64,000 bases of DNA from Actinomyces marmotae. GTDB taxonomy: Bacteria > Actinomycetota > Actinomycetes > Actinomycetales > Actinomycetaceae. Every line of letters starts with the position of its first letter. The stretch's first letter is position 1. Under the pieces are notes generated by a model, which worked only from the letters and a program-made list of their open reading frames with translations, made no database searches and was not told the DNA's origin. Shown here in pieces: positions 18,512-34,128 of this stretch. The stretch is taken from assembly GCF_013177295.1 (NCBI RefSeq), contig NZ_CP053642.1, forward strand, positions 1,178,001 to 1,242,000, in the 5' to 3' direction. A program made the translations under genes and the position numbers.

Positions 18512-20167
18512 ATGCTGAATCCGGTTGACCCCACCACCACGCCCGCCTGGACCCGCCTCACCGAGTTGCGTATCGGGATGCGCCCTGACCTGCGCGCCTG
18601 GTTCGCCCAGGACCCCGAGCGCGCCGAGCGCTTCACCTACCAGGTCGGGGACCTGACCATCGACCTGTCCAAGAACCTCCTGACCGACGACGTCCGCGAC
18701 GCCCTGGCCTCCCTGGCCATCGAGGTGGACGTTCCCGGGCGCCGCGACGCCATGTACGCCGGTGAGCGCATCAACGTCACCGAGGACCGCGCCGTCCTCC
18801 ACACCGCCCTGCGCCGCCCGGCCGACGACGCGCTCATGGTCGATGGCCAGGACGTCGTCGGCGACGTCCACAAGGTCCTCGACCGCGTCTACGACTTCGC
18901 GCGCCGCGTGCGCTCCGGCCAGTGGGTCGGCGTGACCGGCAAGCGCATCGAGACCGTCGTCAACATCGGCATCGGCGGGTCCGACCTCGGCCCCGTCATG
19001 GTCTACGAGGCCCTCAAGCCCTACGTCCAGGACGGCCTGGAGTGCCGCTTCATCTCCAATATAGACCCCAACGACTGCGCGGAGAAGGTCAAGGGCCTCA
19101 ACCCCGAGACCACCTTGTTCATCATCGCCTCCAAGACCTTCACCACCCTGGAGACCCTCACCAACGCGCGCATGGCCCGCGACTGGTTCCTCTCCGCGCT
19201 GACTGAGCGCGGCATCAGCGCCGAGGGCGCCATCGCCAAGCACTTCGTGGCCGTCTCCACCGCCCTGGACAAGGTCGCCGAGTTCGGCATCGACCCCGAC
19301 AACGCCTTCGGCTTCTGGAACTGGGTCGGCGGGCGCTACTCCGTGGACTCCGCCGTCGGCACCGTGCTCGCCGTCGCCATCGGCCCGGAGAACTTCGCGG
19401 ACTTCCTGGCCGGCTTCCACGCCGTCGACGAGCACTTCGCCACCAAGGACCCGGCGGAGAACGCGCCCATGCTCATGGGCCTGCTCAACGTCTGGTACGT
19501 CAACTTCTTCCACGCCGCCAGCCACGCGGTGCTGCCCTACTCGCAGTACCTGCACCGCTTCCCCGCCTACCTCCAGCAGCTCACCATGGAGTCCAACGGC
19601 AAGTCCGTGCGCTGGGACGGATCCTCGGTCACCACCGAGACCGGTGAGATCTTCTGGGGCGAGGCCGGCACCAACGGGCAGCACGCCTTCTACCAGCTCA
19701 TCCACCAGGGCACCCAGCTCATCCCCGCTGACTTCATCGCCGTGGCCAACCCCGCCCACCCGGTGACCGACGGCGGCGTCGACGTCCACGAGTTGTTCCT
19801 GTCCAACTACCTCGCCCAGACGGCCGCGCTCGCCTTCGGCAAGACCGCCGAGGAGGTGCGCGCTGAGGGCACACCGGAGCCGATCGTCCCCGCCCGGGTC
19901 TTCGCCGGCAACAAGCCGACGACGTCGATCCTCGCCCCCGCGCTCACCCCGAGCGTCGTGGGCCAGCTCATCGCCCTGTACGAGCACATCACCTTCACCC
20001 AGGGCATCGTGTGGGGCATCGACTCTTTCGACCAGTGGGGCGTCGAGCTCGGCAAGAAGCTCGCCCTGGAGATCGCGCCGGCCGTGCAGGGCGACGCCGA
20101 CGCGCTGGCCGCGCAGGACTCCTCCACGCAGGCCCTCATCCGCCGCTACCGGGAGCTGCGTCACTGA
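18512..20167 (+). CDS. pgi: Glucose-6-phosphate isomerase
   Basis: Interconverts glucose 6-phosphate and fructose 6-phosphate. The 551-residue protein is of the long bacterial type. It shows [18 protein letters not shown], the signature [18 protein letters not shown] with active-site residues, and the C-terminal [17 protein letters not shown] with the catalytic lysine. The leaderless-type -10 box fixes the start. The following gene begins 9 bases after the stop. Confidence 0.97.
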
Positions 20168-20175
20168 GCGCCGCC

Positions 20176-21366
20176 ATGACCCCTCAGGACCGCGCCCCGT
20201 GGGCGCCCATCATCAGTGACGGGCGCCTGCGGGCCCTGTCCGACGCCGAGCGCGCCCGGTACTCGCGCAACATGCTCGTCCCCGAGGTCGGCGTGACGGG
20301 ACAGCGGCGCATCCGGGCAGCCCGCGTGCTGCTCATCGGGGCGGGCGGCCTCGGCGCGCCCGCCGCGCTTTACCTCGCCGCCGCCGGAGTGGGGACGCTC
20401 GGGATTGTCGAGTTCGACGTCGTCGACGCCTCTAACCTCCAGCGGCAGATCATCCACACGACGGCGGGAGTTGGCGCCTCGAAGGCGCGCTCGGCGGCGT
20501 CGGCGATCACCGCCCTCAACCCCGATGTCGAGGTCATCCTCCACGAGGAGCGGCTCGATGCCGCCAACGCGCTCGACCTTCTGGAGGGCTGGGACGTGGT
20601 GGTGGACGGCACCGACAACTTCCCGACCCGCTACCTCGTGGGCGACGCCTGCGCCATGCTCGGCATCCCGCTCGTCCACGGCGCGGTCCTGCACTCGGCG
20701 GGCCAGGTGGGGGTCTTCGACGCCGCCCGGGGGCCCTGCCACCGATGCCTCCACCCAGAGCCGCCGCCACCGGGCTCCGTGCCCTCCTGCGCCGAGGCCG
20801 GCGTGCTCGGCGTCCTGCCGGGCATCATCGGCACCATGCAGGCCGCCGAGGCCCTCAAGCTCATCGTCGGGGGAGGCGAGCCGCTTATCGGCCGCCTCCT
20901 GCTCCTGGACGCCTGGGGCGCCGACGTGCGCGAGGTGCCCGTGGCCAAGCGACCGGGCTGCGCCCTGTGCGGGGCGAGCCCGACCATCACGAGTCTTGAG
21001 GCGGCGCAGGACGCCTGCGCCGCGCCTGAACCAGCACAACCGAACGAGGAGACCATGAGCACCATCACCGTATCTGAGCTGCGCGCCCGTATCGCGGCGG
21101 GGGAGAGGCCCGGTGAGGCCTACACCATCCTGGACGTGCGTGAGGCCGACGAGGTCGCCGCCATGCCCGTGGAAGGGGCGGCCCACATCCCGCTGGGGGA
21201 GGTGGTCGAGCGAGCCGGGGAGTTGGACGCCGGCAAGGAGACGGTGGTGACCTGCCAGGGCGGCACCCGCTCCAAGAGGGCCATCGAGGCCCTTCAGGCC
21301 GCGGGGTACGCGGGAGCGCTGACTAACCTTGAGGGCGGCGCCCGCGCCTGGTACGAGAGCGCCTGA
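20176..21366 (+). CDS. moeZ: MoeZ-like adenylyltransferase/sulfurtransferase (ThiF-rhodanese)
   Basis: E1-like enzyme that adenylates the C-terminus of small sulfur carriers (MoaD/ThiS type) and then passes sulfur from its rhodanese domain. Residues about 1-285 are the ThiF/MoeB domain: ARYSRNMLVPEVG, the nucleotide loop LIGAGGLGAPA, VDGTDNFPTRYL and zinc cysteines in CHRC and CALC. Residues about 295-396 are rhodanese with the active-site cysteine in VVTCQGGTRSKRA. The ATG at 20176 follows the pgi stop closely, and upstream in-frame starts lie inside pgi. Sulfur-carrier partners are not in view, so the target pathway (molybdopterin or thiamine) is open. Confidence 0.9.
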   Translation: MTPQDRAPWAPIISDGRLRALSDAERARYSRNMLVPEVGVTGQRRIRAARVLLIGAGGLGAPAALYLAAAGVGTLGIVEFDVVDASNLQRQIIHTTAGVGASKARSAASAITALNPDVEVILHEERLDAANALDLLEGWDVVVDGTDNFPTRYLVGDACAMLGIPLVHGAVLHSAGQVGVFDAARGPCHRCLHPEPPPPGSVPSCAEAGVLGVLPGIIGTMQAAEALKLIVGGGEPLIGRLLLLDAWGADVREVPVAKRPGCALCGASPTITSLEAAQDACAAPEPAQPNEETMSTITVSELRARIAAGERPGEAYTILDVREADEVAAMPVEGAAHIPLGEVVERAGELDAGKETVVTCQGGTRSKRAIEALQAAGYAGALTNLEGGARAWYESA

Positions 21367-21388
21367 GGCGCCCGCGCGGGCCGGTCAC

Positions 21389-21430
21389 GGCGGGATCGTG
21401 ACGCGGCGGGATCATGACGCGGCGGGATCA
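21389..21430 (+). repeat. 16-bp tandem repeat, 2.6 copies
   Basis: GGCGGGATCGTGACGC at 21389-21404, a near copy at 21405-21420 and a partial copy at 21421-21430, between moeZ and tRNA-Pro. Confidence 0.7.
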
Positions 21431-21503
21431 GTTGACTCCGCCGTCGCGCCTGCCGTGACCGGCGTCACCGCGCTCCGGTTTCGCCTGCGGGGCCGTGGTG
21501 GGC

Positions 21504-21509
21504 TAAGGT
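21504..21509 (+). promoter_or_regulatory. Predicted -10 box for tRNA-Pro
   Basis: TAAGGT lies 68 bases before the tRNA 5' end. No strong -35 box is seen. Confidence 0.4.
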
Positions 21510-21571
21510 TCTACACGTTCCAAGCGGAGCCGAGCGGCGGAGGGGACTCCAGTCGCAGGGCCGTGAGGCAA

Positions 21572-21648
<77 letters not shown>

Positions 21649-21666
21649 TCAACTTCATACATTAAT

Positions 21667-21698
21667 CCGCGTCATGGTTCCCCATGGCGCGGGTTTTT
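21667..21698 (+). terminator. Intrinsic terminator of tRNA-Pro
   Basis: Arms CCGCGTCATGG (21667-21677) and CCATGGCGCGG (21682-21692) pair with one mismatch around TTCC and are followed by GTTTTT. This is the clearest canonical terminator in the window. Confidence 0.85.
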
Positions 21699-21916
21699 GC
21701 TTGTCTCGGGCTGCTTGATGGGTCTTCTGGGTGGGTTCGGGCTTGGTCTGGTGGATTGGATGGGGGCTCATGAGGCCGACTCCCAGGCCTGATCCGTTCT
21801 GGTGACCCCCTGCTTGTGGGCCTGGAGTGCCCACCTTCTCTGCTTCTTCTCGCTCTTCAGGCCCCTCTTGCGCGCCCAGGGTGTCTGTGTCCTCTCCAAT
21901 CCAGGCCAGGATACTG

Positions 21917-22400
21917 TTAAAAGTGGTTGACTGCTTGCCCTATCTCGGTGACCAGGTTCTTGGATTTGAACTCGGTGATGGAGGCCATGATGCCGTGCAG
22001 GAGTAGACCGCCGGGGGCTGGTCGATGTTCTCGCTGATGGGGACCAGGCGGGTTCCCTAGTCGTCGAGGCTCTGCCCCAGGGCGGTTTCGTTGTAGCAGT
22101 CGCGCACCAGGCGGTCGAGTTTGTGCACGATGATGTAGTCGATGCCCGGCCGTGCCGCTGCCTCCTCATTGAGGAAGCGCAGCATGTCCTGGAGGGCGGG
22201 TCGTTGGGTGGTAGCGGCGGACAGGCCCCTTCGATGAGCTCCTTGACGATGATCGCCCTGAGGCTCATCGCCTTGCGCGTGTAGGTGGCTCGTTGGGCGG
22301 GGATGGAGAAGCCCTGCTCCCAACCACCGCGTCTGGCCTGTTCATGGGAGGAGACCGGTAAGTAGGCCACGACTCGTCCTGGTGTCAGGTCGGCTGCCAT
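21917..22400 (-). pseudogene. Large serine recombinase, N-terminal remnant
   Basis: Read from the ATG at 22400 the frame gives VVAYLPVSSHEQARRGG and GFSIPAQRATY, the catalytic start of serine recombinases with the nucleophile serine. The frame then shifts: a second frame (within 22323-22057) gives RPALQDMLRFLNEEAA and IDYIIVHKLDRLVRD. Then come a stop, the third piece ENIDQPP, and a further shift to LLHGIMASITEFKSKNL before a stop at 21917. The long C-terminal domains of a working integrase are absent. It is a dead integration or resolution enzyme whose presence supports a mobile origin for the island. Confidence 0.85.
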
Positions 22401-22578
22401 GGCGGCCAACGGATCTTGGCGCGAGGGGCAGGCCAGCCCGTGGGCGTGGCGTTCCGGTTCCCGGCCACAGTGTCTCTTGACGGTTGTGGCCTTCACCTGG
22501 GTATTGAGCGCCAGACCAAGGACTTAGACGGTGAGTAAAGCTACGATCCTCAAGTGGTGGATCAGGTTTCCCCGATGG

Positions 22579-22608
22579 ACTTTGCCTCCGTGATGACGGA
22601 GGCAAAGT
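22579..22608. repeat. Perfect 13-bp inverted repeat
   Basis: ACTTTGCCTCCGT (22579-22591) and its exact complement (22596-22608) enclose the loop GATG. No T run follows on either strand. It could be an attenuator, a terminator remnant or a protein site. Confidence 0.75.
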
Positions 22609-22952
22609 ATTGGATGAGCCGGACGCCTCCACCTTGCGCTACCGCTACGACGGCTGGCTGTTCCCGAGAGTTGGTCCGGTCTTCGTCTGGACGCTCCCCT
22701 CCGAGGAGTTTCCAGCGCAGCCGGGCTCTCCGGAGGACTCAGACACCACGCACCCCGCGCATCACACCCGAGCAGTACCTTTCCGCCCCACAAGACAACG
22801 TCCACCGCACAGGAGCCGTCAAGAGATAGGCCTTTACCAAGGTTCTCGGCCATACACCGCACAGGAGTTGGTGAGGACGTAGGCTTGAAACTCGTGGCCG
22901 AACCGTGATCTACGGTACCCGCTGGACACGCCTGGCTTCTCACTGGCCATAT

Positions 22953-22958
22953 TAGACT
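22953..22958 (+). promoter_or_regulatory. -10 box for leaderless transcript of the 22965 gene
   Basis: TAGACT begins exactly 12 bases before the ATG at 22965, matching the host-style leaderless promoters elsewhere in the window. Confidence 0.6.
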
Positions 22959-22964
22959 CACACT

Positions 22965-23681
22965 ATGCCGAGCCAAGCAGGGTACTATAAATGGGACGAT
23001 GTCAGCCTCACACCTGGACAGAAGGTGGAAGGCGGTTGGAGCCAGAACCTCTACGATGAGGATGGTTTCCTACGAGAGCATGCTCGCTTCATCCCCGACG
23101 ACAGCCTTGACCTCGATGACGACGTTCCGTCGGCGTCGTACATCCCCACTGATCAGCGCTCAGAGTCTGGTGATAGCTTCGAACTAGCAATCGCCGCCGC
23201 GGTCGCCACACTGGCTGCAACGGGTGCCATCCACGCCGCTCCACACGTCAAGCGTTGGTGGGGTCAGACCGCCCAACCGTTCGTCATGGTGCAGGCTGAG
23301 AAGATCGCAGGCCTCTTCCGCCGCCACACGGAGACCGGCGACGATGCTGTAGACCCCACTCATGGTCTCGTTCGACCCAACCTGGAACTTCCTGCCCCCG
23401 AGCACCGCGCAGCGATGTCCAGTGCCGAGGCCCAAGCTCGTCTCCTCGCTGCCATGGCCGCCTACACCTACGGTCAGCAACAGTTGCGGCTGGTCACGCA
23501 AGCCCGGATCGTCGATGCCGACGAACTTGACGATGTTCACCGCCAACTGGCAACCATCCCACAGGAGCAGCTCACCGCGTTCCTCGAGCAGATGGTACGT
23601 GATCCAGCACTGCTCCAGGATGCTAGCCTGGCGAACTCGGCTAGCTTGCTGGGACGAAAGCAGTTGAGCTCCATCGCGTAG
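22965..23681 (+). CDS. Hypothetical protein with one hydrophobic segment
   Basis: I do not recognise the family. The 238-residue protein starts with an aromatic/acidic region (YYKWDDVSLTPGQKVEGGW, NLYDEDGFLREHARFIPDDS) followed by an Asp-rich stretch (LDLDDDVP). A hydrophobic, Ala-rich segment lies at about residues 72-90 (LAIAAAVATLAATGAIHAA), and a helical C-terminal half ends in SLLGRKQLSSIA. There is no signal peptide, so a single internal membrane anchor is possible. The leaderless-type box and even codon use say it is a real, expressed gene. It lies in the island, upstream of the decayed coiled-coil gene and the large NTPase. Whether it works with the NTPase is unknown. Confidence 0.75.
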   Translation: MPSQAGYYKWDDVSLTPGQKVEGGWSQNLYDEDGFLREHARFIPDDSLDLDDDVPSASYIPTDQRSESGDSFELAIAAAVATLAATGAIHAAPHVKRWWGQTAQPFVMVQAEKIAGLFRRHTETGDDAVDPTHGLVRPNLELPAPEHRAAMSSAEAQARLLAAMAAYTYGQQQLRLVTQARIVDADELDDVHRQLATIPQEQLTAFLEQMVRDPALLQDASLANSASLLGRKQLSSIA

Positions 23682-23828
23682 AAAGCACACGCGCGAAATG
23701 CGTATCCCTACCTAAATAAGTAAGGTCAGCATTATTTTCACACACCATGATCGCCCTGCTTAGATGTAATTGTGGCAGACAGATATTTCCAACACGTGCA
23801 AAAATGATTAGTTAATAGCCTCAACACT

Positions 23829-24093
23829 ATGGGAAGGCAAATTGACACTCGCTTCGACAAGATCTAGTCGCGCCTCGAGCAGGTCGAGCATAGAATGAAA
23901 GAAATGCGTGATGACATTGAGGCGCGCTTCGGCACCATAGTTCAACAACTCAAAGCCATAGATGAGCGCCTCGCTGATTTAGAAGATAAAGCTCACCGAT
24001 CGCATCAACAAACTCAACCAAGACATCGATTCTCAAGGTCGAAAAGCACTGCGCGACCAGGGCGCCCTGAAGCACTTTCGGGGCCCAGCATGA
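23829..24093 (+). pseudogene. Small coiled-coil protein gene, broken
   Basis: From the ATG at 23829 the frame reads MGRQIDTRFDKI, meets an in-frame TAG at 23865, and continues SRLEQVEHRMKEMRDDIEARF and LKAIDERLADLEDK. Near 23989 the coiled-coil pattern jumps to the next frame (KLTDRINKLNQDIDSQGRKAL) and ends at the TGA at 24093. Joined, it would be a protein of about 85 residues that is almost all heptad repeat. Stop plus frameshift suggest decay; a shorter product from the ATG at 23895 remains possible. It directly precedes the large NTPase gene. Confidence 0.6.
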
Positions 24094-24321
24094 GCAGTTC
24101 GGCGGCCGCGTAGCGATTATTGAGAGTAAGTGACAGGCGGTTGAGATTCCTTATATGATTCCCTTCCGAACGCCCGCAATGATGCCTCATGTACCTGATG
24201 ACCGAAGGAATCAGTCACTACTTTTGATAGAAAAGATACAACGATGCCGTTGCATCTTTCAAATATAAACCCAATCCAAGTGTGACAACATCTCGGTTGG
24301 ACTACTAGTGGAAAATACTAA

Positions 24322-27300
24322 ATGATGAGCAGCTCTCAGCACACCGTGGAAAATAGTCAGTGTCAAGCCAAGACGGAGGTAGAGTCAGCCCGTCTTCGAT
24401 CTTTATGTCCGCAGTATGATGAAACGCGCCATAAGGCATACGTTGATCGGATTCTTCAGGCGCTTGATGATCCGAACATCCATAACATTGCCCTCAGTGG
24501 TGCTTACGGTGCAGGAAAGAGTTCGATTTTACAGGGGTTAAAGAAGTATAAACCGAGTACGATATTCATTTCTCTCTCAACGCTTGGTACCAATCTGGTT
24601 GACAACTCGAGTAACGGTCAGTTATCAAATCATGCCAGTCCTGCAGAACAGGCGAATCGCATCCAGAAGGAGATCGTCAAACAACTGCTCTATCGTGCTG
24701 ATCCGCAAAAGCTCCCTGCTTCGCGCTTCAAGCGGATTCACGGCGCCCGATGCAGCAGTCTTATTGCTAGGTCGGCCTCCGTCGCCGCAGCCATAGCGCT
24801 CGTAAGCCTCATAGTCGGCCTTCCGGATAAACTTCCTCTCGTATCGGAGCAGCCATGGTATGACTTGGTCATCAAACTCTTATTGGTATCGCTATTACTC
24901 ACTATACTTTTGCTCGCACTTGGCCGTCTCCTCCAAGGAACCATCAGCCTGGATAAGGTTGCTGTCGGGCCAACCACTGTCTCATTATCGGCAAATGCCG
25001 AAACGTATTTCGATAGATATCTAGATGAGATCATCTACTTCTTCGAGATCACCAAACTACGTCTCGTTGTGTTCGAGGATATCGATCGTTTCGACAATCC
25101 ACAAATCTTCGATCAACTTCGAGAGTTGAACACACTGCTCAACAATGCCGGCCAATTGAAACGCAAAGGACAGACATGTCCCATTGTCTTCGTCTATGCC
25201 GTAAAGGACAGTATCTTCGATACGTGGCAGTATCCGAATACTACCAGTGCTACTGACGGTGCTAGGCGTGATCTAGCGACTGTCGAGGTCGAGCGCGCTA
25301 ACCGCACCAAGTTCTTCGATCTGATTATCCCTGTCGTTTCTTTCGTCACACACCAGAGCGCGCGGGATTTGCTGAAACAAGAACTAAGGGACGTGCATCC
25401 TTCGGTGTCGCCAGAGTTGATCAACCTCGCGGCCAAGCATGTCCCTGATCTTCGTCTGCTGCGCAGCGCTTGCAACGAGTACCAAATATATGCTGACCTA
25501 CTGCTACGAGATAATGGCCTCGAGTTGGAGCATGATAAACTGTTCGCGATGATGCTCTACAAAGTAGTGCATATGCGCGACTTTGAGCAAATCAGACTCG
25601 GCGCGAGCGCCCTTGATGAAGTATACAAAAAAAGTGTTTCTGTAATCCAACAAAAGATTGCACAGCTCAACGAAAAGTACGACCATTTTGAGAAAGAGGT
25701 AAATGCTGAGAACGAAGCTGAGAACCGTGGCGAGAAATTTACTGAACTGATCAAGTGGATAGTCGCTACCCAAAATAACCGGGAAAAATCGTTTTATGTC
25801 GAGGTTGACGGCAATAAATATGCTAAAAGTCAGACTGTGACGACTGAATTCTGGGATAAGATCGCGCACTTGGCAGATAATGAGAAACTAATTATTTCAC
25901 CTGATAATTATGAATCTACCTTTATGACAATATATTTAACTAAGTTAGATCTGGCTAGATTTATCGGACGTGATTTAGTTTACTATTCACCACGCACTGC
26001 TAGTGCGGAGCGGCTTAAGTGGGAGCTTAAGAAGATATCTTCTGAACGAGAAGAGTTTAGACGCGCAACCATGTCTAACCTTATTGAGTGGGATACCGTG
26101 GTTCCAGGCATGGCCTCCAACGGGGAAAAGTGCTCATTTTCGAAATATATTCGACATTGTCTTGGATCAAGACTTGCCGCAGATCTAATTAGATACGGCT
26201 ACATTGATCGCAACTTTGTGCTATATACATCAATATATCATGATACCTCTCTCAGCGCGTCGGCAATGTCCTTTAAGATCCAGCACATCGACGCCGGCCG
26301 AATGAATGCCATCTACAGGCTTGAAGATCATGATCTTAAAGACTTACTACCTAGCCTTGATCATGATGAGTTGATGCAGCCCGGAGCTTATAACATATTT
26401 ATTTTAGACTATCTTCTTCGTAAGCCTGAGGAGATGCAAGAATATTCGGCGGCTATGGTTGATGCTTTGGTACGTGATGGTCACGATGAACGGCAATTGT
26501 TACAGGAGTACTTTTCGTCTGAAGAAGTGACTAGGCGTGAGCAAGAGGACAAGTTTGTGGCGCTGCTAGCACCGAAGCTCCCTTCGCTGTTCACCAGGAT
26601 TATCGAACTCGAGGGAGTGCCGGACCATCGACAACGTCATCTGATGGATGTAGCACTCCGGACAATGGCTGATTCGATTGACTATGACACTACTGGTCTC
26701 AAAGACTTCATTAAGGCCTCGTATGACCAGCTAGAGAGTCTGAAGTCCGGCTCGAGTGTGCAGTTGGACGCGGGAATAGTGGCCCTACTGTTTCAGAAGG
26801 CGGAAGTCAAGATCCCGAGACTAGGGGCACTTCGTGAAGATCTCTGCGAGAAGTTGATCGATAATCAGTCTTATGAGATTAACCGAGCTAATCTCGATAC
26901 GATAACTCGAGGCGACGAGATTTCTCTTGACTGGCTGAAAATGAAACGTCAGGCGTGTTACGAATACGTCACAGCTCATCTCGACAAGTATCTGGCTGCG
27001 TTAACAGAGGATAGTACAGTGCCGGCTTCGGCACTGACCGGGAATGAGCTGGTGGGAGAGGTCGTTGCGGATTTGGCTAACAACAAGTCTCATGCCTCCT
27101 CTGCATCGGTTGATGAGCCTGTCGGCAGTACTGTGGCGGAACAGACATTCTCAGTCTTAGATAGAGTTCTCGACAAAACTGACAAATCCGTCATGATCAC
27201 CCTCGGCGAACCAGTCCCAGTTAAGTGCTGGCCGACATTCGCGCAGCAAGGCCGGTTTGCTGTAGATACGAATAACACACTTGCCTATATCGAGGCCTGC

Positions 27301-28107
27301 GGCCTCGATGAGGCACTGGCTGAGCTTATGGTTGAACAGGGCAGTATTGAGTCAAGTGGCAAACTTGAGTATAGCGACTACCTAGCGATCGCTAAGCCGA
27401 TATTAGAGGCTGACGAAAGGCTCATCGGTCTCGATCAGTGCATTGATCTTGTCAACTCCCTCGGTAATGCGGAATATATCGATCCAGATGACATTGAGCC
27501 GATTGCCGGTGATATGATTGGACGACTTATTTGCTCCGGTATTATTGAGGACGATGAAAGGTCGTACCAACTGGCGCGGCAGCTTGACGATTGGTCCAGC
27601 CGAGAGTCAGCGATCGCTTCTTCTAAGAAATTTATCGACTTCATGACTCCCGACATCGTAAAGGATGATGCTGCACAAATTGTCAATAGTAAGCGTATCG
27701 GCGAAGCTGTAAAACGTAAAATATTGGAGAATCCTCGTTTGTATTGCTCGTGCTTGAACTCTGAGGACTTGATGACGATACGTGAACGTGCAGTCAGTTG
27801 TTCAGAATTGCGCCTTGGAGAAGATGCGCTGATGTTCTTCGCGGAGCATTATAGGGGTGCAACTGACGTGATCATATTACTGGTGCGCGCAATTGATAAT
27901 TTAGAGGGTACTTCAATTCAGAACATCGTTCGGGCCTTAGGTGACGTCTACGCAGATCTACTTGTTCCCGGAAGGCAGGAGATTCGGGTGCCGGCGGCGC
28001 GAGGCCTAGAGAAGATCTTGGATAAATTGAAGACGGTAGGCGCAGTGTCGACCTATAAGTTAATGAAAGGCGGAAAGGAATTCAAAGTTCATCGTAGGCA
28101 AAAATGA
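24322..28107 (+). CDS. Large membrane-embedded P-loop NTPase (YobI/KAP-like)
   Basis: A 1261-residue ATPase. Walker A is SGAYGAGKSS (residues 59-68). Two hydrophobic helices at about 150-168 and 183-204 are inserted before Walker B LRLVVFEDIDRF (about 246-257), and a sensor-like strand CPIVFVYAVKDS lies near 290. Membrane helices between Walker A and B are the hallmark of KAP and YobI-type P-loop NTPases. The KAP member PifA of plasmid F blocks phage T7. The region around 425-480 is coiled coil, and the long C-terminal part (about 600-1261) is helical and unassigned. It is intact, AT-rich and sits alone in the island after a decayed gene, with ATGs at 24322 and 24325. A defence or exclusion role is inferred. 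Confidence 0.85.
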   Translation: MMSSSQHTVENSQCQAKTEVESARLRSLCPQYDETRHKAYVDRILQALDDPNIHNIALSGAYGAGKSSILQGLKKYKPSTIFISLSTLGTNLVDNSSNGQLSNHASPAEQANRIQKEIVKQLLYRADPQKLPASRFKRIHGARCSSLIARSASVAAAIALVSLIVGLPDKLPLVSEQPWYDLVIKLLLVSLLLTILLLALGRLLQGTISLDKVAVGPTTVSLSANAETYFDRYLDEIIYFFEITKLRLVVFEDIDRFDNPQIFDQLRELNTLLNNAGQLKRKGQTCPIVFVYAVKDSIFDTWQYPNTTSATDGARRDLATVEVERANRTKFFDLIIPVVSFVTHQSARDLLKQELRDVHPSVSPELINLAAKHVPDLRLLRSACNEYQIYADLLLRDNGLELEHDKLFAMMLYKVVHMRDFEQIRLGASALDEVYKKSVSVIQQKIAQLNEKYDHFEKEVNAENEAENRGEKFTELIKWIVATQNNREKSFYVEVDGNKYAKSQTVTTEFWDKIAHLADNEKLIISPDNYESTFMTIYLTKLDLARFIGRDLVYYSPRTASAERLKWELKKISSEREEFRRATMSNLIEWDTVVPGMASNGEKCSFSKYIRHCLGSRLAADLIRYGYIDRNFVLYTSIYHDTSLSASAMSFKIQHIDAGRMNAIYRLEDHDLKDLLPSLDHDELMQPGAYNIFILDYLLRKPEEMQEYSAAMVDALVRDGHDERQLLQEYFSSEEVTRREQEDKFVALLAPKLPSLFTRIIELEGVPDHRQRHLMDVALRTMADSIDYDTTGLKDFIKASYDQLESLKSGSSVQLDAGIVALLFQKAEVKIPRLGALREDLCEKLIDNQSYEINRANLDTITRGDEISLDWLKMKRQACYEYVTAHLDKYLAALTEDSTVPASALTGNELVGEVVADLANNKSHASSASVDEPVGSTVAEQTFSVLDRVLDKTDKSVMITLGEPVPVKCWPTFAQQGRFAVDTNNTLAYIEACGLDEALAELMVEQGSIESSGKLEYSDYLAIAKPILEADERLIGLDQCIDLVNSLGNAEYIDPDDIEPIAGDMIGRLICSGIIEDDERSYQLARQLDDWSSRESAIASSKKFIDFMTPDIVKDDAAQIVNSKRIGEAVKRKILENPRLYCSCLNSEDLMTIRERAVSCSELRLGEDALMFFAEHYRGATDVIILLVRAIDNLEGTSIQNIVRALGDVYADLLVPGRQEIRVPAARGLEKILDKLKTVGAVSTYKLMKGGKEFKVHRRQK

Positions 28108-28140
28108 TGTTATACTTCCCTTGGAGGTTGTGGGGAAAGA

Positions 28141-28788
28141 GTGGAGGACCTCGATGACGAAGATTCCTACGCCATCAACTCCGAAAGTTTCGATGTGTTC
28201 AACACTACCTCCTGCCGTCTGGATATTACTACTTTCCTCGGACTTGGAGACCTCGATCTAGAAGCGACCGGGCTCCATGCCAGCACATACCGTGCTGTGA
28301 TCAAGTGTGTTCCCAACGGTGATGACGGCTGTTGCCGTAGGCACGAGGGGCGTCACGGGGTTGTGGACCGCTGGCAAGTCCATGTTCCTTTGGGCCAGCG
28401 CCCTACGGTGTTGTTGGTTCGCCTGCCCCACTATCGCTGCCCCGGTTGCGGCTGCTGCTGGCGTCATCAGTTGAAACGGGCCGCAGCGCCCAGAGCCAGG
28501 TCGGCTCGGGCCGCGATCGTGCGGGGACTCGAAGCACTTGTGTTCGATCGGCTCCCGATCTCGCGGATCGCTGCTGCGCTCAGGGTTGCTTGGGGCATCG
28601 CGAACACTGCGATCCTGGACGCCGGTTAACATTTGCTCGTCGATATCCTAGCCGTCTGGACGGGGTTCGAGTGCTTGGTGCTGATGAGCATGGCTGGCGT
28701 CGCACCCAGTTGGGCAACAAGTATGTGACCGTCATGATCGACCTGACCCCGTTTCGGGACAACCGCGGTCCGTCACGGCTCATCGCAT
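28141..28788 (+). pseudogene. ISL3-family transposase fragment, frameshifted
   Basis: The first frame (28141-28629) shows the ISL3 N-terminus: LDITTFLGLGDLDLEATGL, RWQVHVPLGQRPTVLLVR and the zinc ribbon end HYRCPGCGCCW, up to ILDAG, where a stop follows. The match resumes in another frame with SRLDGVRVLGADEHGWRR and KYVTVMIDLTPFRD, which includes the first catalytic aspartate region (DEH). It breaks off near 28788, so most of the catalytic domain is missing. It is a dead insertion-sequence remnant at the right side of the island. Confidence 0.85.
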
Positions 28789-29009
28789 CCGTCTCCGCCC
28801 CAGCCTCCTGCGACTTCACCAGAGCTCTGGCACCAACAGACGCCTCGCACTTGTCACCTCTTGCTGGGCTGCTGCTTCAGCGCTCACGGACTCCTACCCC
28901 GAACCGGCTCCTTTACCAGTCTCCGCATGCCCCTGATTCGCACGACCCGCCACCGCCATGACATACCGCCACGGCGAGAGGCACCGCCCACCGCGACGCT
29001 CAGCGGGCC

Positions 29010-31478
29010 TCAGGCGACCTCGGCGATCGCGGCCAGCACGGCGTCGGGGACTCCCACGGCGCGTAGGCCGCCGAGCAGCGCCCCGCCGGTCGCCCCCGAC
29101 CGGACGACGTCCCAGGCGCGATCCTTCACCACGTAGTCGATCTCCACCGGCTCAAGGATCGAGAACACCTCATCGGCCAGAGCCGGCGGCGCCGCCCGCA
29201 GCCCCTCCAACTCCACCACCACGCCGTCGGCCGGGCGAACCTCTCCCAGCGCGATATCGAGCCCCGCGCCCAGCGTGAAACCATCGGCCAACCGGCCACG
29301 CACCTCCAGCGCCCGCCCATCCAAGGACGCCCGCACATCGCCACCGGCCGACAGGAGGCGCACGGTGATCTCCCGCGCCTCGGGCACCACGCCCCGCGGG
29401 CCCTCCTGGCCGATCTCCAAGCGCGCGCGCCCGGCACTCTCATCCCAGGTCAGGGTCAAGCGCGTGCACACCACGGCATCCGGGCCGGGCTCGGGAGAGC
29501 CATCGTCCTCCTCCAGGACGAACACGCCGTCGGCCCCCGGCACCACCACGACGTCGAGGCACCGGGGATTGGCGCCCGCGGCCTCGGCCAGGTCGCCTGC
29601 GAGCACGAGGAGGCTGCCCGCGCGCGCCAGCACCGGCACCTGCTCCAGGCGCCGCGAGAGCACGAGCTCGGCGCCACCCTCGACACCGGCCGTGTAGCGA
29701 CGGCCGGTCGGCAGGTCGAACCAGGTCCCCTCGGGGAGCCAGGCACTCTCCTGGGCAAGCCCGGTGGCGGCATCGGAGCGGTGAACCATGGGCACCACCA
29801 GGAGGTCGCCAAACAGGAATTCCGCGTGGTGGGAGTAAGCCCCCGCACGCCACGGATGGTCGTGGTAGAGCGGGCGGATCGGGGCGAGGCCGTCGGCCGC
29901 GGCGCGCCGGGCCCACGTGTACAGGCTCGGAACCAGCCGGTGGCGCAGCCGCAGGTAGGCGCTCATCGTGGCGCGGGCATCACGGGAGTAGCGCCACGGC
30001 TCCTTGGAGTTGAATACCGACGCCGTGGAATGGAGGCGATTGATGGGGGAGAAGCAGCCCAGCTGCGCCCAGCGCGCCATCATCTCGGAGTCCTTGACGC
30101 CGAGCATGTGACCGCCGATGTCATTCGACCACCAGAAGTACCCGATATTCGCGGCCCTCGCCGTGAACTCCGGCTGGAAAGCCAAGGACTCCCAGCTGGT
30201 GACTGTGTCACCGGAGAAGCCGATGGGCGTGCGGTGGCTGGAAGCGTCCGCGAAGCGGGAGAAAGTGATGGGGCGGCGCCGTCCACCCGGGCGCTCCCTA
30301 CCGGAATCCAAGTAGTGGATGTGGTTGAGCATCCACAGGGGGTCGAGGCCCGGGATATCGGTGACGCCTCCCTGCTGCCAGTCGAGCCACCAGAAATCGA
30401 CGCCGTCCTCCTCCAGCACGTGGTGGGCGCGCTCCAGGTAGGCGGCCACGAAGGCCTTGTCCGTGATGTTGAAGGGGATCTCCTCGCCGGAGTCGGGATC
30501 ACGGCCCAGATCCCGCATCATCGGGGCATAGGCGTCCTCGTGGCGCCGGATACCGGCCGCCGGATGCAGGTTGAGGGTCACCATCATGCCCCGCTCATGA
30601 AGCGCGGCGAGGAAACGCGAGGGGCAGGGGAAGAGTTCAGTGTTCCAGGAGTAGCCGGTCCAGCCGTTGCCGATGGCCGGGTCGATGTCCACCCAATGCC
30701 AGTCCATGTCGAGCACCGCCACGGAGAAGGGCAGGCCCTCCGCGGCAAAGCGGTCCATGAGCGCGAGGTACTCCTCCTCAGAGTACGGGTGGTAGCGGCT
30801 CCACCAGTTGCCCAGGAGCGCCCGGGGCACCAGCGGCGTCGGGCCCGTCAAGGCGAAGAAGGCGCGCAGGGCGCCGCGGTAGTCCTGGCCGTAGCCGAAG
30901 AGGTAGAGGTCCTCCCCGCCCGGGGCTCCGTCCACCGGGCCGGCGCCCGGGCGCGGCCGCACCCACTGGTCCTCCTGGAGCAGCAGGGATCCGGAGTCGT
31001 CGACGACGGCGATGCCGTCCGTGGACAGCAGCCCCGGCCCCAGGTCCACCCGGCCGTCGGCCTCGTCCAGGGTACGGCGGGTGCCGCCGAGGTTCGTCGG
31101 GTAGTTCTCGTGGGGGTCCCACGCATCGCCGTGGTGCCAAGTGCCCCCGTGGAGGTTGAGGACCGCGGTGCGCAGGCTGACGCTCAGTCCGGACCGGGAG
31201 AATCCCCGCGAAGGCTGGTAGGCCAGGTGGAGGTGCTCGGTGAGTATCTCTAGGCGGTCATCGCCCCGCACCACCTTGAAGGCCGGCGTGGGGCCCAGGT
31301 CCCGGGACAGGACGAGCTGGGTGGCGGCGTCGGTGAAGACCCCGTCAGGGGAGTGCTCCATGCGGATGAGCCGATCGGTGAGCACGGTGAAGCGGGCCGA
31401 TCCCGCCATCACGACGGCGTCGGGGCGGGCGGGGGCCATCCGGGGCTGGCTGGAGGCGGAGGACAGGGGAGAGGGCAT
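29010..31478 (-). CDS. GH31 alpha-glucosidase / alpha-xylosidase-type enzyme
   Basis: Glycoside hydrolase family 31, 822 residues, cytoplasmic (no signal peptide). The catalytic barrel shows FSVAVLDMDWHWVD, the nucleophile aspartate near residue 366 in WWLDWQQGG, the acid/base aspartate near 424 in GFSGDTVTSWESL, and YFWWSNDIGGHM. C-terminal beta domains follow. The family cleaves alpha-linked glucosides or xylosides; the exact sugar cannot be told. The start is uncertain, since ATGs at 31478 and about 14 codons later (MAPARP) both fit and neither has a strong ribosome site. It is divergent from the tetR gene and faces the island with its 3' end. Confidence 0.9.
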   Translation of the reverse strand: MPSPLSSASSQPRMAPARPDAVVMAGSARFTVLTDRLIRMEHSPDGVFTDAATQLVLSRDLGPTPAFKVVRGDDRLEILTEHLHLAYQPSRGFSRSGLSVSLRTAVLNLHGGTWHHGDAWDPHENYPTNLGGTRRTLDEADGRVDLGPGLLSTDGIAVVDDSGSLLLQEDQWVRPRPGAGPVDGAPGGEDLYLFGYGQDYRGALRAFFALTGPTPLVPRALLGNWWSRYHPYSEEEYLALMDRFAAEGLPFSVAVLDMDWHWVDIDPAIGNGWTGYSWNTELFPCPSRFLAALHERGMMVTLNLHPAAGIRRHEDAYAPMMRDLGRDPDSGEEIPFNITDKAFVAAYLERAHHVLEEDGVDFWWLDWQQGGVTDIPGLDPLWMLNHIHYLDSGRERPGGRRRPITFSRFADASSHRTPIGFSGDTVTSWESLAFQPEFTARAANIGYFWWSNDIGGHMLGVKDSEMMARWAQLGCFSPINRLHSTASVFNSKEPWRYSRDARATMSAYLRLRHRLVPSLYTWARRAAADGLAPIRPLYHDHPWRAGAYSHHAEFLFGDLLVVPMVHRSDAATGLAQESAWLPEGTWFDLPTGRRYTAGVEGGAELVLSRRLEQVPVLARAGSLLVLAGDLAEAAGANPRCLDVVVVPGADGVFVLEEDDGSPEPGPDAVVCTRLTLTWDESAGRARLEIGQEGPRGVVPEAREITVRLLSAGGDVRASLDGRALEVRGRLADGFTLGAGLDIALGEVRPADGVVVELEGLRAAPPALADEVFSILEPVEIDYVVKDRAWDVVRSGATGGALLGGLRAVGVPDAVLAAIAEVA

Positions 31479-31659
31479 GATCGGTCTTCGACTACGGCGG
31501 TGGCGGCGCCCGCCAGGGGGCGCTCATGGACGACGGGGCGGATGAGGAGCACCGGCCTGACCCCATCATCCATCACGGGGCGCCACCTGGGGTAGCCCTC
31601 CCGGGCCAGCCCGGGTGGGGGAGCGGCGCGGCGGCGCCATCCACCGATCGTTCTGACGC

Positions 31660-31679
31660 CGTGTGCTCATAAGCACACG
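31660..31679. promoter_or_regulatory. Perfect palindrome before tetR
   Basis: CGTGTGCT (31660-31667) and AGCACACG (31672-31679) are exact complements around CATA. It lies immediately left of the paired operator at 31682 and may be a further operator half-site or part of the divergent promoter region. Confidence 0.6.
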
Positions 31680-31681
31680 TT

Positions 31682-31713
31682 TTGCACTTGGTGCAAGGCT
31701 GCACCGAGTGCAA
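31682..31713. promoter_or_regulatory. Paired palindromic operator of the TetR regulator
   Basis: TTGCACTTGGTGCAA (31682-31696) is a perfect inverted repeat. TGCACCGAGTGCAA (31700-31713) is a second, nearly identical one in inverse order. Together they form a 32-base dyad with one mismatch ending 11 bases before the tetR ATG. Spacing and symmetry fit two TetR dimers. Confidence 0.75.
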
Positions 31714-31723
31714 CGCTCACGCC

Positions 31724-34128
<2,405 letters not shown>

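Follow-up and report, generated by a model that had tools for sequence, protein, structure and literature searches.

Tmn is a single-gene KAP-type nucleoside triphosphatase (NTPase), described without a partner; tested in E. coli, in enterobacterial variants, it blocks the phages T2, P1, phiVi, phiX and T1 (PMC11846954). A phage-encoded inhibitor of Tmn is reported, and one change in the phage DNA-modification gene nmad5 permits escape from Tmn, although deletion of nmad5 does not (PMC11846954). Here we describe a relative of Tmn in a stretch of 64,000 nucleotides from Actinomyces marmotae (the window, meaning the whole stretch that was analysed), taken from a genome that consists of a single 2.42-Mb contig. 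The gene occupies positions 24322..28107 of the forward strand and encodes a YobI-type (Tmn-like) membrane P-loop NTPase of 1,261 amino acids, hereafter the ATPase. An earlier note, made from the letters of this DNA, had proposed a role in phage exclusion. Our comparisons suggest, with a probability of roughly 0.74, that this is a defence gene, a one-gene anti-phage system resembling Tmn from the YobI branch of KAP-type NTPases.

The ATPase is a direct member of the YobI family, found in Actinomyces, Corynebacterium, Enterobacter plasmids and others, and nothing that defines the family differs in it. Its residues 40-431 match positions 1-362 of the 363 in the YobI-ATPase model PF20693 (E = 2.8e-103; 346.7 bits, cut-off 27). 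The layout had been called KAP/YobI-type; the YobI half of that description stands, but the Pfam KAP model PF07693 gave no match in the protein (E threshold 0.1) or in its genome (E threshold 0.001). Some relatives do match PF07693, for example P0101 (31 bits, cut-off 20). A literature search conducted without full texts turned up no paper on a tested function under the name YobI.

Kinship with Tmn extends over the whole protein. The PADLOC Tmn profile (PDLC02220) aligned positions 15-710 of its 1,273 with residues 14-702 of the ATPase (178.8 bits; E = 3.6e-53). BLASTP gave 30% identity to E. coli Tmn over residues 18-424, and a full-length alignment at 32% to a YobI protein from an Enterobacter plasmid. 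When the two families were compared profile to profile, 1,151 columns aligned (E = 2e-76; 17% identity), and slices restricted to residues 440-1261, 720-1261 and 900-1261 still matched Tmn (1.8e-18, 2.9e-11 and 2.6e-10, respectively), while reversed or shuffled control slices gave no alignment to it (best E = 0.068). Like Tmn, the ATPase is the product of a single gene of about 1,270 codons, with a PF20693 NTPase and two hydrophobic helices in the same region. These alignments make it a distant full-length cousin of Tmn, the C-terminal half included. They do not make it a true Tmn, an identification that we rejected: the E. coli and Klebsiella plasmid Tmn proteins score 2045.6 and 2180.6 bits over their whole length, far above the ATPase, and in a tree of 56 rows 16 Tmn rows lie on one side of a branch (Shimodaira-Hasegawa-like approximate likelihood ratio test, 100), with the ATPase and 39 rows on the other. 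This tree was built from the first 520 residues with no outgroup, a midpoint root for drawing and a long-branch warning.

The gene is intact, with an ATG start and no internal stop. Its 1,261 codons are the longest open frame of the surrounding island (21860-28990); the longest frames in 200 first-order Markov shuffles averaged 169 codons and never exceeded 267. The earlier note had placed two membrane helices between Walker A and Walker B of an intact ATPase, and open reading frame (ORF), motifs and hydropathy agree with it. Walker A (GAYGAGKS, residues 60-67) is encoded at 24499..24522 and Walker B (LVVFEDIDRF, residues about 248-257) begins at 25063, its first nine residues (LVVFEDIDR, 248-256) filling 25063..25089; both stood out as motifs and in an alignment of 44 sequences, where G60, G65, K66, S67, E252, D253, D255 and R256 are invariant. 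Between them lie two predicted membrane helices, supported by hydropathy and by helices in the structure model, at residues 144-165 (24751..24816) and 179-204 (24856..24933), all on the forward strand; the hydrophobic stretches themselves span about 147-167 and 180-204. All 44 aligned relatives and all 28 Tmn-family proteins have two hydrophobic windows in that region. Further along the same strand, AlphaFold2 models contain a long helix pair resembling a coiled-coil linker (residues 432-483; 25615..25770), followed by a predicted alpha-solenoid (residues about 606-1206; 26137..27939) and, from the secondary structure of the model, a small mixed beta/alpha end (residues about 1211-1258; 27952..28095). 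The ATPase is therefore predicted to be an AAA+/STAND-type NTPase with two inserted membrane helices, then a coiled-coil-like linker and a long alpha-solenoid. About 650 C-terminal residues had been put forward as a sensor or an effector; we propose the solenoid as a sensor, and no clear enzyme match was found there. RADAR was rejected as an identification, as the ATPase fold is generic and a shared fold says nothing on function, no search for an RdrB deaminase having been made. We know of no description of membrane helices in RdrA.

The gene has a patchy distribution. A match was found in 4 of 59 genomes: the source genome, two of the 36 other congeners and one of 22 genomes of the order. One of the congeneric matches (G022) consists of two pieces on two contigs. 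In the class, 5 of 148 genomes carry the family, the source genome included. A. timonensis, outside the 59, has a YobI gene at another site, its tRNA-Pro slot holding other material. The closest protein among the matches listed comes from Actinomyces sp. zg296 (1,260 amino acids, 94% identical), and among the best 120 of 2,151 protein matches identity falls from 94% to 31%; the other homologue sets comprised the best 120 of 2,535 and the 80 genome contigs kept of 142. Three matches came from viral contigs. On the tree, the phyla require 5 changes, against a minimum of 2, a figure that the tool does not treat as proof of transfer.

The surroundings in the window are those of a variable slot of about 7.1 kb, lying between tRNA-Pro(ggg) (21572..21648, forward) with a MoeZ/ThiF-type gene carrying a rhodanese domain (20011..21366, forward; profile matches) on the left and a GH31 glycosidase gene (29010..31478, reverse; profile match) on the right. 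When positions 20000-32000 were compared by blastn with the three congeners that best matched the tRNA stretch (L030, L031 and L032), the left alignment ended at 21859, 21813 and 21646 and the right one resumed at 28991-28994, so that the island (21860..28990) is not shared with them as a block. The earlier note had described an AT-rich gene in a tRNA-Pro island, flanked by decayed mobile genes and the only large intact gene there, and most of this was borne out. The guanine-plus-cytosine (GC) content is 0.45-0.50 in the ATPase gene and 0.66-0.78 in the rest of the window beyond the island, and at third codon positions it stands at 0.51, compared with 0.97 for the PGI gene. Upstream lies the remnant of a serine recombinase (resolvase), interrupted by a TAG (22018..22230, reverse; PF00239, 2.1e-8), and downstream an ISL3 transposase remnant split into two pieces, of which the first contains a TAA (28330..28748, forward; NF033550). 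Within the island only the ATPase gene is both large and intact, but a 238-amino-acid ORF (22965-23681) is intact as well. The tRNA gene does adjoin the island, but a search for attachment-site repeats found no second copy of its 3' end at the other side; integration into tRNA-Pro is thus unsupported, and the tRNA describes the place rather than the mechanism. The cargo of the slot differs in all four related genomes: the YobI NTPase in the window, an OLD-like ATPase piece in G035 and other material in two. Between the same two flanking genes, G035 carries the C-terminal piece of an OLD-like ATPase in place of our gene (AAA_15, 2.6e-15; PADLOC Old, 6.9e-27), an unrelated protein with only 276 amino acids open, and retains the left-island pieces 22076-22297, 22873-23022, 23451-23581 and 24093-24140. 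By eye, the slots of the other two congeners appeared to hold ISL3-like material and a HicB-like gene with a 388-amino-acid gene.

The survey of relatives of the ATPase took in 80 genome contigs, 5 plasmids, 3 viral contigs, 3 relatives and the window, 92 loci in all, of which L108 and L133 duplicate others. ORFs around them were called by a crude greedy rule from the first possible start, which misses short or overlapping genes and makes overlaps dependent on the start. Type I restriction genes formed the largest groups of clustered neighbours; the HsdM and HsdS clusters took their names from gene size, order and place in the operon, and HsdS was confirmed singly only at L056. We rejected a single fixed partner shared by all YobI proteins, the top neighbour clusters covering 11 and 10 of the 92 loci. 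Same-strand type I restriction genes were found at ten loci (L054, L055, L056, L058, L060, L063, L068, L074, L090 and L126), and L082, labelled by hand as restriction-modification (RM), has a type III restriction endonuclease and methyltransferase, the former ending 19 bp ahead of the ATPase frame. When frames are counted from the first possible start, the YobI frame and HsdR share 4 bp in L054 and in L063, and in L090 HsdR stops 2 bp short of it; in L055 and L058 the 4-bp overlap is with an intervening gene (YgjP-like peptidase and PDC-M36A-like, respectively). L054, from Micrococcus terreus, also has an Abi_C/AbiJ-like gene just downstream of its YobI gene. Type I/III coupling marks 11 of 87 labelled rows of a tree that omits L133, L108, the copy of the window labelled "WIN" and every locus whose main frame falls below 1,000 amino acids, and requires at least 7 gains or losses, forced by the starred branches.

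The nearest neighbours were also scanned: after a GC-frame filter, at most two ORFs upstream and one downstream were taken at each locus, 225 in total (L133, L108, L069 and the window left aside). REase_I models matched 8 of 112 and 2 of 113 of them, and there were two GajB matches among the 112 and two MTase_II matches among the 113; each tally covers its first 25 families, and the REase_I tallies are not mapped member by member. As a background, the REase_I model PDLC03040 (1e-20) had 39 matches in 29 of 148 class genomes, which, at 2 Mb per genome (a low guess), predicts about 0.15 matches within 6 kb of the 92 loci; 10 were seen. This background is rough, being one model that undercounts other HsdR types and is set against loci from other genera. 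Putative defence neighbours are found in a minority of relatives, well above it.

Four lines of evidence point to defence: the full-length homology to Tmn, itself experimentally tested (PMC11846954); the patchy distribution; the variable slot, with its OLD-like ATPase piece in one relative; and the relatives inside or beside RM and Abi-type genes. The candidate phage-exclusion role proposed beforehand is supported by them, as an argument from comparison. The earlier note had taken as its analogy the KAP protein PifA, which excludes phage T7 and is encoded by plasmid F; the tested relative compared here is Tmn. The earlier note had also named what would speak against it, homologues fixed in position with no defence neighbours or a match to a housekeeping ATPase, and the opposite was found. 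Several observations weigh against defence. None of 50,697 phage records matched the ATPase, the island has no other intact known defence gene, and 76 of the 87 labelled rows show no RM coupling by the clusters used. Neither half of the protein had a Foldseek match in the PDB at E <= 0.001, and ORC, TnsC and NLR ATPases fit the N-terminal model at least as well as defence ATPases do, so the fold is not specific to defence. Defence by the clade of the ATPase would also follow by comparison, Tmn itself being the tested relative, and the mechanism of Tmn is reported to be unsolved (PMC11846954).

Among other explanations, the one that survives best is that the ATPase serves the mobile element that carries it, by excluding competing plasmids or elements or by maintenance, rather than defending against phages as such. 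The 633 plasmid records with a match, 7 of which match over at least 80% of the query, and the resolvase and ISL3 remnants next to the gene fit this proposal. It nevertheless seems improbable, given relatives in RM operons of genome assemblies, whose contigs may be chromosomal or plasmid, and given that Tmn acts on phages (PMC11846954). It also overlaps with defence, because element-borne defence serves both. That the gene is a relic, a still-open frame that has stopped working after a recent loss of its partners or its promoter, we regard as less probable still. The adjoining mobile genes are broken, and G035 lacks the ATPase and has only pieces of the 238-amino-acid neighbour left, but the gene has kept 1,261 open codons and its Walker residues, a 1,260-residue protein in Actinomyces sp. 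zg296 is 94% identical, and Tmn is described as one KAP protein, with no partner (PMC11846954). A housekeeping or membrane-physiology ATPase of Actinomycetota, for which only the membrane helices speak, was rejected as very improbable, as the gene is absent from 34 of 36 other congeners and 143 of 148 class genomes and its neighbourhoods vary from locus to locus.

If the ATPase is a defence protein, its predicted architecture suggests how it may act. It would form an ATP-regulated assembly, probably an oligomer, embedded in the cell membrane, and its C-terminal solenoid would recognise some sign of infection. An ATP-dependent rearrangement could then act as a switch through the paired membrane helices, and the membrane would be permeabilised, or the entry or replication of phage DNA stopped there, with the infection aborted. 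The membrane step is drawn from the anatomy of the paired helices, which also counts against the account as a whole, and we put action by harm to the membrane at somewhat less than an even chance.

The PrrC protein, which guards EcoprrI, offers an analogy for the RM-coupled relatives. YobI-type NTPases might be a portable second line, repeatedly added to RM operons to guard against phages that defeat restriction by modified DNA or restriction inhibitors, and acting at the membrane; Tmn and the gene in the window would then be free-standing versions. This idea draws on the repeated gain or loss of RM coupling, on the 4-bp overlaps with HsdR or the preceding gene and on the nmad5 change that permits escape from Tmn, though deletion of nmad5 does not (PMC11846954). 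We offer it tentatively and think it rather unlikely as a whole.

The second intact gene of the island (22965..23681, forward) encodes a 238-amino-acid protein that had no Pfam, PADLOC or NCBIfam match and a weak PHROG hit (0.034). Its family is present in 8 of 49 genus genomes and 9 of 198 order genomes, the source genome being counted in both, and several members have one hydrophobic stretch that is absent in others. In A. timonensis (L052) a relative with 45% identity, whose end runs on in another frame, adjoins the YobI gene, and another lies upstream of the RM-ATPase operon in L058 (34% identity). Eight loci of the family were fetched, and ten large neighbours from six of them scanned. 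Neighbours included a DruE3-like giant helicase and a UvrD-type protein (L155), a type I RM system (L159) and RmrA (L160); the large neighbours scanned at L157, L158 and L161 gave no defence match. The gene is accordingly a candidate defence-island gene. At L155 (congener G059), the DruE3-like helicase (2,191 amino acids) and the UvrD-type gene (726 amino acids) lie on the strand opposite to the 238-amino-acid family member, and L156 (congener G017) has the same layout by size only, with a helicase-sized gene of 2,177 amino acids; a Druantia-like variant in Actinomyces is possible. Between the 238-amino-acid gene and the ATPase, a short coiled-coil-like fragment was noticed by eye (23800-24113), perhaps decayed.

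The ATPase belongs to a kind of gene that is already known, and the point of interest is the repeated coupling of its relatives to restriction operons. If our reading is correct, Tmn-type defence would extend to a sister clade, here in Actinomycetota and Pseudomonadota, and this clade would offer a handle on the mechanism of Tmn. That relatives recur at the end of type I or type III restriction operons suggests that restriction and a back-up, which may act at the membrane, share the work of defence.
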